Origin: a virus
Virus record (IMG/VR): IMGVR_UViG_3300013195_000005
Location: 13,577-43,337 of that record
Reading direction: 5' to 3' (one strand)
Length of the DNA stretch: 29,761 nt
The number at the start of each line of letters is the position of its first letter. Positions within the stretch are counted from its first letter, which is position 1. This document shows, in pieces, positions 9,038 through 24,642 of this stretch. A program made the position numbers and the translations under genes. The notes under the pieces were generated by a model. That model was not told the origin of the DNA, made no database searches, and worked only from the letters and a program-made list of their open reading frames with translations.

Positions 9038-10192
9038 ATGACCCTTACTAACCAAAATACTAATACTGAAATGCAGGCCAGCCTTTCACGGCTTGGTCAA
9101 GATAATTCTACGGGTGATGCCCGTGCACTATTCCTTCGCCTGTTTAGTGGCGAAATGTTCAAAGGTTTCGAGTACAATGCAATCGCTCGTGACCTGGTTA
9201 CCCGTCGTACGCTGCAGAACGGCAAGTCTATGCAGTTCTTGTACACTGGTCGCACCAAGGCTGAGTTCCATACGCCTGGTAACGCCATTTTGGGTAACAG
9301 CGACGGCGCACCTCCTGTGTCCGAGAAGTACGTCACCGTTGACGACCTGCTGATCTCCAGCGCATTCGTCTACGACCTCGACGAGACTCTCGCTCACTAC
9401 GACCTGCGTTCTGAGATCTCCCGTAAGATCGGCTATGCTCTCGCTGAGAAGTATGACCGCCTGGTCTTCCGTTCGATCGCTCGCGGTGCACGTGCTGCTT
9501 CCCCGATCACTAAGGCTAACTTTGTTGAGCCCGGTGGTACTCAGATCCGTGTTGGCACTGGTAACGCTGATGATGCTTATGATGCCCAAAAGCTGGTCAC
9601 CGCTTTCTACGACGCTGCTGCTGCAATGGACGAGAAAGGTGTCAGCTCTGAAGGTCGCGTGGGTGTCCTGAACCCCCGCCAGTACTACAAGCTGATCCAA
9701 GAAGTTGGTGATAACGGTCTGATCAACCGCGATGAGCAGGGTACCGCACGTCAACGTGGTCAAGGTATCGTCGAAATCGCTGGTATCAAGATCTACAAGT
9801 CGATGAACATCCCGTTCTTCAGCAAGTATGGTACCAAGTATGGTGCTGCTGATGCAACTACTCCTGGTGTGACTTCGCCGACTAACCCTGGCTCCTTCCT
9901 GTCTCCCGACATCGAAGATGCTGCTAACGATGTTACCGGTATTCACAGCGAGTACGGTGAAGAAACCGAATTCGCTAACAGCTGCGGTCTCATCTTCCAG
10001 CGTGAAGGTGCTGCTGCTGTTGAAGCCATCGGTCCTCAAGTGCAAGTCACCAGCGGTGACGTCTCCGTGATCTATCAGGGTGACGTGATCCTTGGTCGTC
10101 TCGCCATGGGCTCTGACTACCTGAACCCCGCTGCCTGCGTCGAACTGATTGCTGGCGCTGCTACTGGTTCTGCTGGCAACGCTGCCTTCTGA
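9038..10192 (+). CDS. Major capsid protein, T7 gp10-like
   Basis: This 384-residue protein has the T7 gp10 / HK97-fold pattern. The N-arm region leads to ARDLVTRRTLQNGKSMQFLY, then GRTKAEFHTPGN, the ITIDGLL-equivalent VTVDDLLISSAFVYDLDE, and LRSEISRKIGYALAEKYDR, which is the spine-helix region. The rest holds the P-domain and a longer C-terminal part than T7 gp10A (345). Codon use is strongly biased to C-ending codons, consistent with the most highly expressed phage protein. Unlike T7, no minor capsid form from a -1 frameshift is evident, because a terminator follows the stop within about 20 bases. The 150-bp leader with palindromes upstream is the likely site of its promoter. Confidence 0.97.
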   Translation: MTLTNQNTNTEMQASLSRLGQDNSTGDARALFLRLFSGEMFKGFEYNAIARDLVTRRTLQNGKSMQFLYTGRTKAEFHTPGNAILGNSDGAPPVSEKYVTVDDLLISSAFVYDLDETLAHYDLRSEISRKIGYALAEKYDRLVFRSIARGARAASPITKANFVEPGGTQIRVGTGNADDAYDAQKLVTAFYDAAAAMDEKGVSSEGRVGVLNPRQYYKLIQEVGDNGLINRDEQGTARQRGQGIVEIAGIKIYKSMNIPFFSKYGTKYGAADATTPGVTSPTNPGSFLSPDIEDAANDVTGIHSEYGEETEFANSCGLIFQREGAAAVEAIGPQVQVTSGDVSVIYQGDVILGRLAMGSDYLNPAACVELIAGAATGSAGNAAF

Positions 10193-10212
10193 TCTTTTTT
10201 TGATCTCATATT

Positions 10213-10240
10213 GGGGTGTCTTCGGACGCCCCTTTTTTTT
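10213..10240 (+). terminator. Intrinsic terminator with UUCG tetraloop after capsid gene
   Basis: GGGGTGTC (10213-10220), a TTCG loop (10221-10224) and GACGCCCC (10225-10232) form an eight-pair stem (one G-U pair) followed by eight T (10233-10240). The C(UUCG)G loop is exceptionally stable. Its place between capsid and gp11 genes is that of Tphi in T7, where partial termination lowers expression of tail genes relative to capsid. Confidence 0.95.
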
Positions 10241-10253
10241 ATTCATTACTACT

Positions 10254-10868
10254 ATGCCTGTCACTCATGCTGCGTCCACCGAACTGGATGCTGTCAATCA
10301 AATCCTAAGCTCCGTGGGACAGGCTCCTGTCACCACGCTTGACCTTCAAAACCCTGAAGTTGCTATTGTTCTTACAACCCTACGGGAAGTAAACAAGCAA
10401 GTACAAAGCGAAGGTTGGACTTTCAATCTAGAACGTCATTACATTTTAAAACCAGATTCCAATTCTCAGGAAATTCTGTTCCCTACTAATGCCTTACAGA
10501 TCGACACTAATGTCGAAAGCCACCGTGATGACTATGATGTAGTACGACGTGGAAACAAACTCTACGACCGACATAATCACACCTTTCAATTCACCAAAGA
10601 TATTACAGCTGATATTACTTGGTTCTATGAATTTGAAGATGTACCGCCTGTAATTCAAAACTACATTACAGCTAGAGCTGCTCGTATGGCAGCTGTTAAA
10701 ACAGTTGGTGAGGCTCAACTCGCTGGACTGCTGCAAGAACAAGAATTAATGACCCGTGCCGCTGCAGTTGAGTATGATTGCAACCAAGCTGATTATAGCA
10801 TCTTTGGTTGGCGTGACGGTGAAAACTACTACAATTCCTACAAACCGTATAACGCACTTGCACGATGA
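10254..10868 (+). CDS. Tail tubular protein A, T7 gp11-like
   Basis: This 204-residue protein (T7 gp11 is 196) starts at ATG 10254, just beyond the terminator; the frame is open upstream only as a shadow over the capsid 3' end and terminator. The start is supported by STELDAVNQILSSVGQAPVT, the canonical N-terminal pattern of the gp11 family, and later by EGWTFNLERHYILKPD, DITWFYEFEDVPPVIQNYIT and ARAARMAAVKTVGEAQL. Twelve gp11 subunits form the ring that joins the portal to the nozzle (gp12) and anchors the fibres. It is coupled to gp12 by an ATGA overlap. Confidence 0.95.
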   Translation: MPVTHAASTELDAVNQILSSVGQAPVTTLDLQNPEVAIVLTTLREVNKQVQSEGWTFNLERHYILKPDSNSQEILFPTNALQIDTNVESHRDDYDVVRRGNKLYDRHNHTFQFTKDITADITWFYEFEDVPPVIQNYITARAARMAAVKTVGEAQLAGLLQEQELMTRAAAVEYDCNQADYSIFGWRDGENYYNSYKPYNALAR

Positions 10869-21838: not shown

Positions 21839-22774
21839 ATGTCTACAACTGAAGCACTACGTGATGGTGATGGTAATACCGTCACCTTCAATTTTCCATT
21901 TGAATATTTAGAGGAGTCCGACGTCAAAGTAACTGTCGTCGGAGAACCTACACAAATCCAAGATACCCATTATTCGTTTTCGAGTTTAACTGAAATCACA
22001 TTCGTTACACCGCCTCCTGCTGGAACTGGTAACGTTCGTATTTTTAGAGAGACCGATTCAACCAGCCTGCGAAGCCAGTTTTTCGCAGGTTCGGCTATTC
22101 GAGCGCAGGATTTGAATGAAAACTTCAACCAGACGCTTTACGTTAGTCAGGAAGTTAATGAACGCTTCATTGATACTAACAACGCTGTTTTTGCTGCAGA
22201 TGTCAGCTTAGGTGGTTTTAAAATTACCAACCTTGCTGATGGTGTCGCGACAACAGATGCTGTCAATAAAAGCCAGCTAGACGCAACACAAAACGCTAAT
22301 GATGCAGCGCTTGCAACAGCTGTAAGTAATGCACAAGCAGCACAAACCGCTGCAGAAACTGCAAAAACAGGAGCTGAAACTGCTGCAAGTACTGCAAGTA
22401 CTTCTGCTACAACTGCTGGAACTAACGCAACAACAGCAAGCGGTCATGCAGATGCTGCTGCTGCCAGTGCTGCTGCAGCTGCTGCTTCGGCTGGTGCTGC
22501 TGCTAACTTTACTGGAGCACCTGTATTTCTTGGACTTAAGCGTAATGTTGCAAACGGTCGAACCGTTTTACGCGTAGATTATTCCGAAGGATCTAATACG
22601 ACTAATACGTACGATCCTAAAGATTATTACTACAAACAGCAATACACATGTCAGATTCTCGACAACGGTATTTTGCACACAACTGGTGACAACCTTGGTG
22701 AGCCTAAGTTTGCCTTTGCAACAACGACTGATGCAAGTCGTACCTCTGGTCACGTTTACATTCAACTACACTAA
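21839..22774 (+). CDS. Tail fibre protein, T7 gp17 N-terminal-type adaptor
   Basis: This protein has 311 residues. Residues 1-150 match the T7 gp17 N-terminal (tail-attachment) domain: TFNFPFEYLEESDVKVTVVG, RIFRETDSTSLRSQFF, GSAIRAQDLNENFNQTLYVS, then GGFKITNLADGVATTDAVNK. Residues 150-225 are Ala/Thr/Ser heptad-like repeats, probably a trimeric coiled-coil shaft. The last 85 residues form a small beta-rich head. It is shorter than T7 gp17 (553), so it likely carries a further fibre protein, the next gene, as its tip. Function: attaches to the gp11/gp12 tail and links to receptor binding. A TAATG overlap links it to the following gene. Confidence 0.92.
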   Translation: MSTTEALRDGDGNTVTFNFPFEYLEESDVKVTVVGEPTQIQDTHYSFSSLTEITFVTPPPAGTGNVRIFRETDSTSLRSQFFAGSAIRAQDLNENFNQTLYVSQEVNERFIDTNNAVFAADVSLGGFKITNLADGVATTDAVNKSQLDATQNANDAALATAVSNAQAAQTAAETAKTGAETAASTASTSATTAGTNATTASGHADAAAASAAAAAASAGAAANFTGAPVFLGLKRNVANGRTVLRVDYSEGSNTTNTYDPKDYYYKQQYTCQILDNGILHTTGDNLGEPKFAFATTTDASRTSGHVYIQLH

Positions 22775-24642
22775 TGGCATTTATTGATCTCGGAAAACTT
22801 AAATTTAACTGGCAGGGAACCTGGAATAACGGCACAGCCTATGAAACGGATGATGTCGTCTTCCACGGGAGCCAGACTTTTGTAGCAACCGCTGATGTTG
22901 CTGCAGGACAAGCTGAACCACAAGCTAATGCTTCCTGGAGCCTAATGGCTGCAGGCTTTAACTACCGTGGTACCTATGCAGGTGGTACTACTTACTATCT
23001 GCATGATGTAGTTACTTACGGTAGCGCCCTTTACATGCTTGAGGGTATCGCAGAAACTGGCAGTCAAACCGGTGTTGATCCTGGTTCTAATCCTGGTTCT
23101 GATAACTGGGAACAGCTGACTCCGGCACCTGCTGCGAACGTCATGCACTCCGTTGGTGACATGGTGTTCCGTAATAACGCTAACGCAAACGCTCGCCTGG
23201 TTATTAGCGAAACCGCTGGTCTAGCACTAAACGTCGGTGAATCTCCTAAGGAGACATATCCTTCTCGTGCCTTTACTTATACCCTAAATGGTACTAACGG
23301 TAACGTAATTAACACCCCTGGTTCGATTGCTGCTGTTACTTATAACATCACGACTAAAAATCAACGTGCTACTAACTATGTTATTGATGGTAGCGACCGC
23401 GACGGTGATATTAACTGGGAGTATGATGGAATCATTCGTGTAAACATTGGCGATACCATTGTATTTAACAACACTAATACTCACAGTGCCCACCCGATGG
23501 CAATCCGTGTTGCCGATGGTGGTGCAAGTGTATCTACTGGTACTTACTCTGGTGAAGGTACTGCAACTGTTACTTGGGTAACTACTGGTGTTACTGCTGG
23601 TACTTACTACTACCAGTGCACTAACCACGCTGGAATGCTTGGTCAAATTATTGTTGAGTCAACTGAAAACCGTCAAGGTTCTGCTGGCGCTAACGGTACC
23701 ATGGAAGTTTGCCGTGGTAAGTCCTACACCATCACTTTGGATGGTCTGACTAGCGGTTTGAACTACAACCTGTTTAATGCTGCTGCACCACAAGCTGGTG
23801 TTACTAATGCTATTACTTCGGGAGAAGGTAACAGTGCTCCTGGGGGTACTGCTTACAGCGGTAGTGCCGTTACATTTACTTTTACTCCGAACGAGACAAC
23901 TCCTGACACTGTTTATTTGAGCAGTGCCTCGAACACTAGCGATCAGGTAGCTATTACTGTCAACGACCTGGCTTACGTGCCTGGTTGGGCTACACCTACT
24001 CCTAGTAATCAACTGGTTCTAGATGATTCTGATGGTACAAATACTTTTACCATCAACACAAATAACCAATCAAACAACCTTCAGTGGACTTTACCGGCCA
24101 TTGCACCTGCAACTAACGACAAAATTATGCAGGTCAGCACTAGCGGTAACATCACTTATGTTGACAAGCCACAGGGTTATATTGAAGCATCCGGTTTCTG
24201 GACAAACCGCCGGAACATGAATAGCAGCACTCAGTATGGCGGATCCGCTAATGTTTGGATTAGAGGTAAACTTACAACTGAAGAATGGGATGACGGTAAC
24301 TTAGGTACTGTCTCTAGCGATCAACTTACTGTCGCCAGTGCAGGTACTTACCTTATAAACTTCTTCGCTTCAGGTCACTATTTTAATGGTTATGTCGCCC
24401 GTCTCCACAATGTAACGACTGGCACAACCTTGTCAGGTTCCCAAGCCGCTTATTCTACGCAGTACTACAACCATACCATCCCTATTGAAGGTATGTGGTA
24501 CGGAACTCTTAATGCCAACGATGTAATTGCTGTTGATTTTAATATTCAATCAGCTTACTCCTCTGGTTATCAATATAACTATTGGGCAAACCCTGTCCAA
24601 ACCTTTGAAACCGGCATCCTTATGTATAAAATCTCTACTTAA
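22774..24642 (+). CDS. Tail fibre/receptor-binding protein with CBM-like repeats and cupredoxin-like domain
   Basis: This 622-residue protein appears modular. Residues 10-60 and 65-120 are two related repeats (NWQGTWNNGTAYETDDVVFH and NYRGTYAGGTTYYLHDVVTY) like the chitin/cellulose-binding CBM5/12 type found in phage fibres. Residues about 170-300 look like a cupredoxin: GDTIVFNNTNTHSAHPM (His237/His240) and YYYQCTNHAGMLGQI (Cys282, His285, Met288) give a His, Cys, His, Met set like type-1 copper ligands. Two beta segments follow, then a C-terminal jelly-roll-like head (SSDQLTVASAGTYLINFFAS, ending GILMYKIST) resembling C1q/TNF-type fibre tips. A 12-bp tandem repeat (23078-23101) encodes SNPGS linkers. 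Likely role: host recognition. Domain calls are by eye; copper binding is untested. Confidence 0.78.
   Translation: MAFIDLGKLKFNWQGTWNNGTAYETDDVVFHGSQTFVATADVAAGQAEPQANASWSLMAAGFNYRGTYAGGTTYYLHDVVTYGSALYMLEGIAETGSQTGVDPGSNPGSDNWEQLTPAPAANVMHSVGDMVFRNNANANARLVISETAGLALNVGESPKETYPSRAFTYTLNGTNGNVINTPGSIAAVTYNITTKNQRATNYVIDGSDRDGDINWEYDGIIRVNIGDTIVFNNTNTHSAHPMAIRVADGGASVSTGTYSGEGTATVTWVTTGVTAGTYYYQCTNHAGMLGQIIVESTENRQGSAGANGTMEVCRGKSYTITLDGLTSGLNYNLFNAAAPQAGVTNAITSGEGNSAPGGTAYSGSAVTFTFTPNETTPDTVYLSSASNTSDQVAITVNDLAYVPGWATPTPSNQLVLDDSDGTNTFTINTNNQSNNLQWTLPAIAPATNDKIMQVSTSGNITYVDKPQGYIEASGFWTNRRNMNSSTQYGGSANVWIRGKLTTEEWDDGNLGTVSSDQLTVASAGTYLINFFASGHYFNGYVARLHNVTTGTTLSGSQAAYSTQYYNHTIPIEGMWYGTLNANDVIAVDFNIQSAYSSGYQYNYWANPVQTFETGILMYKIST

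Follow-up and report, generated by a model that had tools for sequence, protein, structure and literature searches.

Phage-encoded plastocyanin is a photosynthesis gene, and the petE of cyanophage P-SSM2 (181223-181444) is, like the domain described here, a cupredoxin encoded by a cyanophage. It differs in being a 131-aa open frame with a C-x-P-H-x4-M loop, presumed to be a host photosynthesis gene and not a virion module; plastocyanin itself is a free protein with a C-x2-H-x4-M loop, whereas the loop considered here is C-x2-H-x2-M and lies inside a 622-aa tail fibre. Amicyanin, the best profile match in the PDB, shares the ligand order and the exact Cys-x2-His-x2-Met spacing of the phage domain; in the accessible text of PMC12723479 its ligands are His53, Cys92, His95 and Met98. 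However, amicyanin is the free electron carrier of methylamine dehydrogenase and the phage domain is embedded in a virion fibre, identity between the two is about 22%, the Pro of the amicyanin CTPH is Asn in the phage domain, and the phage side has an extra N-terminal part with a G-x-D-R motif that is conserved in an alignment of 55 viral domains. By structure, the best VIA-align matches are the N-terminal cupredoxin of three-domain copper nitrite reductase (2dv6, 6tfo) and the two-domain laccases (Z 9.5 and 9.0, among the matches listed), yet these belong to enzymes and the fibre has no enzyme context. Metal ligands built into a phage fibre, as predicted here, are described for T4 gp37-type proteins in the accessible text of PMC11705849; those are repeated His-x-His sites that hold iron in a trimer, in contrast to one predicted Cys/His/Met site per subunit within a cupredoxin. 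The fold and the copper site of the present domain are of known kinds, and its use as a virion module is new. To our knowledge no cupredoxin has been described that forms part of the machinery by which virions adhere and that is shared by unrelated tail proteins; a search of the mostly open-access literature turned up no phage virion protein reported to have a blue copper, plastocyanin-like or cupredoxin domain. The accessible text of PMC10436341 and PMC9325289 is unrelated to cupredoxins in virion proteins.

The window, a stretch of 29,761 nucleotides, is taken from a virus record of 43,337 bases, of which it covers positions 13577-43337. Its gene order runs from ribonucleotide reductase through portal, capsid assembly, psbA, major capsid, tail tube, nozzle and internal virion proteins to a T7-type fibre adaptor, and its DNA resembles that of the Synechococcus phages S-RIP2 and S-SBP1; because of this gene order and likeness, the source virus is a T7-like cyanophage. 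The fibre ORF follows directly on the adaptor gene (Table 1), and the N-terminal repeats of its residues 1-176 are also found in fibres without a cupredoxin. Over the 22 kb upstream the window is similar to S-RIP2 and S-SBP1, but its fibre (22774-24642) is unlike theirs, which suggests an exchange of the fibre cassette.

Table 1. Features of the window, and proteins of other phages that carry the domain; positions refer to the window unless a genome is named.
Feature	Position	Strand	Basis
Fibre adaptor, 311 aa: T7-tail-fibre N-terminal domain and short coiled stalk	21839..22774	+	PF03906 E=1.2e-19, PF05662 E=5.5e-8
Tail fibre with cupredoxin domain, 622 aa	22774..24642	+	ORF translation; PHROG tail-fibre matches
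Fibre residues 1-176: W-G-x-W / D-V-V repeats of the conserved N-terminus, weakly CBM5/12-like	22774..23301	+	PF02839 E=0.035, short of the cut-off
Cupredoxin (type 1 copper) domain, fibre residues 177-295	23302..23658	+	Profile, Pfam and fold matches, AlphaFold2 model
His240, predicted equatorial ligand 1	23491..23493	+	Alignment column H64, 55/55; 68/73 of rows with a residue there, ligand-independent set (among matches listed)
Cys282, predicted equatorial thiolate ligand	23617..23619	+	55/55; 72/79 ligand-independent set (among matches listed)
His285, predicted equatorial ligand 2	23626..23628	+	55/55; 73/79 ligand-independent set (among matches listed)
Met288, predicted axial ligand	23635..23637	+	55/55; 76/79 ligand-independent set (among matches listed)
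Second beta domain, fibre residues 297-402, weak likeness to a ligand-free cupredoxin copy	23662..23979	+	hhalign, VIA-align
TNF/C1q-like jelly-roll tip, fibre residues 477-622	24202..24639	+	VIA-align on low-confidence model
T4 gp10-like / gp9-like baseplate protein with cupredoxin	Syn9 79017-80237; P-SSM4 79112-80341		
Proximal tail fibre with cupredoxin	P-SSM2		
S8 proteases with cupredoxin at C-terminus	marine cyanophages		
Large structural-looking, neck-proximal protein upstream of gp13, with cupredoxin	marine cyanophages		
'Virion structural protein' with cupredoxin	S-TIM5		

The initial annotation placed a cupredoxin-like domain inside the tail fibre at 23380-23665. Agreement among PF00127, PDB profile matches, the AlphaFold2 model and fold matches bears out the identification; the location stands, and the extent is corrected to a slightly longer domain at about 23302-23658. 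The two stretches on which that annotation drew, GDTIVFNNTNTHSAHPM and YYYQCTNHAGMLGQI, are both in the fibre and span 23449-23649. The isolated domain scores 23.1 bits against PF00127 (Copper-bind), above the cut-off of 21.2 for membership, and the whole 622-aa fibre scores 18.9 bits, below it. Searching the PDB by phmmer returned pseudoazurin and amicyanin at E of about 6e-4, and a profile of 55 relatives returned amicyanin at E=3.6e-7. These 55 viral domains, the chosen set below, are the window's own and those of 54 of 88 loci; PF00127 is matched by 54 of the 55 at E<=0.1. The structure prediction that the annotation had proposed gave a confident beta barrel with a mean pLDDT of 92.3, in which Cys106 (domain numbering) ends a strand and His109 and Met112 lie in the next loop, the arrangement of cupredoxins. 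Its best solved structures by Foldseek are copper proteins, namely pseudoazurin, NirK and amicyanin (33 matches at E<=0.001; E 6.4e-5 to pseudoazurin, with modest query TM-scores of 0.37-0.54), and VIA-align pairs it with NirK and small laccases at Z 8.3-9.5 over 92-99 residues and 2.2-2.6 A (among 50 matches listed). The predicted model is a Greek-key beta barrel matching solved cupredoxins, and on this model the segment is a true cupredoxin domain. A chance match is ruled out by the phmmer and profile matches in the PDB, the Pfam score, the ligand columns (55 of 55) and Foldseek. PHROG 677, 9158, 27200 and 15006 are matched by 54, 55, 54 and 48 of the 55 domains, respectively; PHROG 677 is labelled 'baseplate wedge tail fiber protein connector' and PHROG 15006 'tail fiber protein', and none of the four bears a copper-binding or cupredoxin label.

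Four plausible type 1 copper ligands are present in the fibre, two His, one Cys and one Met in the right order, which upholds the earlier reading of plastocyanin-type ligands; the numbering Cys282, His285 and Met288 agrees with the ORF translation. His240, from an 'HP' pair, completes the set of four, and His237, also in that stretch, is unconserved. The His-Met spacing of three had been remarked on as shorter than in plastocyanin, which it is, but it is no anomaly: it equals that of the amicyanin loop, and therefore the copper reading is not weakened. The same Cys-x2-His-x2-Met loop occurs in 47 of the 55 relatives and a Cys-x4-His-x2-Met loop in 8. A Pro between Cys and His is present in amicyanin, pseudoazurin and P-SSM2 plastocyanin and in none of the 55 phage domains, and for want of this CTPH proline we do not class the domain as an amicyanin, although it may work like one. 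Replacement of that residue in amicyanin (P94F, P94A) makes the potential more positive, according to the accessible text of PMC12723479, and since the phage domains have no Pro at this place their site might, by analogy, be high-potential. At four further loci (L219 at ~9293, L248 at ~10074, L263 at ~2116 and L276 at ~3131) Cys-x2-His-x2-Met is found without the 'HP' first His at its usual place; the site there may be shifted or have three ligands.

Across the 55 aligned domains of the chosen set, for which one scan pattern contained His and Met, none of the four ligands varies. A wider tally found the full set in 75 of 91 non-redundant viral rows; of the other 16, 12 are split or incomplete matches and 4 have truly lost ligands (L090 twice, L058, L060). 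A ligand-independent test was based on a DNA scan for AGTYYYQ (at least 120 stretches), with members called by a ligand-masked HMM at E<1e-10; in the N-terminal half of the domain no stretch was conserved enough to serve as a scan query. Among the matches listed, 122 occurrences gave 105 distinct rows after removal of 17 duplicates, and C-x2-4-H-x2-4-M is present in 78 of these and absent in 27. The masked HMM kept 79 of the listed rows (72 with the motif, 7 without), at least one of which (L300) is not the AGTYYYQ match itself but a domain next to it on the fragment, and dropped 26 (6 with the motif and 20 without, the latter mostly unrelated proteins or weak scores). With no ligand in the scan pattern, the four ligands are 91-96% conserved among the matches listed. 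Outside AGTYYYQ, Met ranks about 4th in conservation, the first His 8th, the second His 10th and Cys 13th; two glycines and one proline are more conserved than all four ligand columns (79 rows, among the matches listed).

Some or all ligands are lost in 8 of the 79 rows, and among the matches listed the losses coincide: for the first His and Cys, which are 42 residues apart, the two-by-two counts are 67, 1 and 0, 5 (Fisher p=4e-7), with p=2.5e-8 for Cys and the second His and p=2e-5 for the two His, p-values that overstate the case because the losing rows are related and stem from perhaps 4 or 5 lineages. Thirty-two tables of ligand against control columns gave p from 0.0077 to 1, and Met is kept in 5 of the 7 rows without Cys (both among the matches listed). 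At the level of sequence, the joint loss of His, Cys and His is the behaviour expected of a metal site; the three strong ligands would form a selected unit, with which survival of the axial Met through decay of the site fits, as expected. Virion cupredoxins in which most or all ligands are gone and the fold signature is kept occur at L090/L210, L227, L231, L265 and L300, and to judge from their residues these are natural metal-free controls.

The initial annotation had set the domain in a receptor-binding protein; the protein is indeed a tail fibre, but the domain sits in the conserved shaft and not in the variable tip. Among 7 relatives, identity is 43-98% in the N-terminal 120 residues, 54-95% in the cupredoxin (177-295) and 50-95% in the next domain, and only 7-28% in residues 470-622. 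Of 12 loci with a related fibre N-terminus, 5 have the cupredoxin, 5 that are more distantly related do not, and the other 2 are truncated; by this sequence comparison the cupredoxin is therefore an optional shaft module. The second beta domain matches the cupredoxin profile by hhalign at E=6.4e-4 with a probability of only 28%, and a NirK chain (24-284) spans residues 187-401 of the full-length model in a flexible match with an rmsd of 16.7; this domain (297-402) is possibly, on weak likeness, a ligand-free cupredoxin-like copy. At pLDDT 51 and pTM 0.35 the full-length model is poor, and the tip assignment depends on the fold matches of this low-confidence model: Z 9.7-12.1 to TNF/C1q-family heads, 9.9 to the short tail fibre of cyanophage A-1(L) (8ke9) and 9.8 to cyanophage A4 (9k09), all by VIA-align. 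Close relatives carry unrelated tips in place of the last ~145 residues, and the modelled tip is probably a receptor-binding head.

The survey of other cyanophages that had been suggested found the domain in their tail and baseplate proteins (Table 1), and the view that it is peculiar to one receptor-binding protein does not hold, as it recurs in several kinds of virion protein in marine cyanophages. Relatives are encoded on 436 IMG/VR stretches. In a collection of named phages, tblastn at E<=1e-3 matched 19 of 50,697 records, every one a Synechococcus or Prochlorococcus phage. P-HM1, which is grown on MED4, and S-CAM4 are further laboratory cyanophages that carry the module. Four of 11 phage genomes chosen by name match (P-SSM2, P-SSM4, Syn9 and S-TIM5), and S-PM2, S-SM2, P-SSP7, Syn5, HTVC008M, T4 and T7 do not; of six further phage records, the 4 picked as matches were confirmed and S-SBP1 and S-RIP2 are without a match. 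His, Cys, His and Met are kept in 9 of 9 complete, well-scoring isolate domains, a count that leaves out plastocyanin and the weakest matches. P-SSM2 (AY939844) has a free plastocyanin plus cupredoxin modules in tail proteins; because it carries both, the virion modules are separate from phage plastocyanin. The S8/subtilisin-like cyanomyovirus proteins L010 (4285-6333) and L012 (4348-6354) end in the cupredoxin domain. For Syn9 gp102, a phmmer search of the PDB gave no convincing chain for the cupredoxin part and matched only the N-terminus, to T4 gp10/gp9.

In cells, a genome scan whose pattern contained the Cys found the nearest relatives in marine Bacteroidota, one Euryarchaeota MAG and Thaumarchaeota (best 80 of 104). 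The marine Bacteroidota loci L095-L135 encode a no-proline cupredoxin that is often the last domain of predicted lipoproteins. Lipoprotein domains of this kind, not cyanobacterial proteins, are the closest cellular sequences among the matches kept, and nothing supports the earlier idea that the module mimics a host surface protein. A tree of 97 rows, built on few columns and with long branches, largely separates viral from cellular domains (3 label changes versus 32.8 in shuffles). Capture of a plastocyanin from the host is not favoured, given that the nearest cellular relatives among the 80 matches kept are from Bacteroidota and archaea and that viral and cellular rows lie largely apart in the tree.

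We propose that a cupredoxin domain whose type 1 site is complete and has amicyanin spacing serves as a building block of the fibre shaft, in which bound copper locks and stiffens the beta domain, and we put the probability of this reading at roughly one half. The predicted site of His240, Cys282, His285 and Met288 would bind copper picked up from the host or from sea water, and the main job of the metal would be mechanical, by analogy with the histidine-bound iron in T4 gp37; host recognition would be left to the tip, and redox cycling or delivery of copper would be unneeded. Recurrence of the module in baseplate gp9/gp10-like, proximal-fibre and neck-proximal proteins fits a general structural role better than a tie to one receptor. 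Relatives without ligands exist, and therefore the fold does not need metal and structural necessity is weakened; the site may hold zinc, or the domain may be metal-free with a conserved core. Because the ligand set looks intact and the domain recurs in tail and baseplate proteins of ocean viruses, some virus particles may carry copper.

That some relatives without ligands keep the fold signature, and that 13 of the 55 members also weakly match an Ig-like Pfam model, would suit a plain Ig-like beta-sandwich decoration whose ligands bind nothing and are left over, as a fossil, from a cellular cupredoxin. We consider this unlikely, as a fossil would decay residue by residue, whereas the ligands in the ligand-unconditioned scan (among the matches listed) are both highly conserved and lost jointly. 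The Cys might instead serve as a disulphide or free thiol, the fibre having two cysteines, 282 and 313. Cys282 is kept in 8 of 8 fibres, however, including the two (L020, L022) from which Cys313, the only other shared cysteine, is missing, making a disulphide unlikely; loss of the Cys also accompanies loss of both His, and we hold either role to be highly unlikely.

Other readings would give the metal a more active part than the structural one we prefer. The copper of the fibre could be recognised by a host metal-uptake receptor, or aid sticking to the envelope, as a 'copper Trojan horse' analogous to the iron-in-tail-fibre (Ferrojan) hypothesis in the accessible text of PMC11705849. Such metal-mediated adhesion suits a domain located in adhesion devices, but appears quite unlikely for one that lies in the conserved shaft instead of the host-specific tip and that also forms the C-terminal end of S8 proteases and occurs in neck-proximal proteins. 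Alternatively, Cu(I)/Cu(II) cycling in the fibre would sense or use electrons at the host surface, for example gating adsorption or detoxifying oxidants. The intact type 1 ligand set agrees with such a redox-active module, as does the absence of the Cys-His Pro in 55 of 55 domains, given the potentials of the amicyanin variants above; we nevertheless judge it very unlikely, as beside the fibre in the window neither a redox enzyme nor a redox partner or electron path was recognised. Adsorption of S-PM2 is light-dependent, yet its genome is without a domain match, a further point against redox gating.

A broader claim would extend copper binding from the shaft block proposed here to the particle as a whole: many marine cyanophage virions would be copper metalloparticles, with type 1 centres, tuned by the missing Pro, in fibres, baseplates and tail-associated proteases, and this copper would play a role in infection, be it in adhesion, redox gating or metal delivery, and would belong to the pool of copper ligands in the sea. 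We regard this as rather unlikely. A cupredoxin in the adhesion machinery of virions would provide phage fibres with a type of metal site that differs from their known histidine-iron sites. It would also let a copper version of the Ferrojan hypothesis be tested directly in cultured phages, and abundant ocean viruses would be possible copper ligands. The bland labels of these proteins, 'hypothetical', 'immunoglobulin domain' and 'baseplate connector', are corrected by the present identification. Elsewhere in the window, opposite the major capsid gene, lies an antisense open frame of 378 aa (9128-10264, minus strand), which is probably a composition effect.
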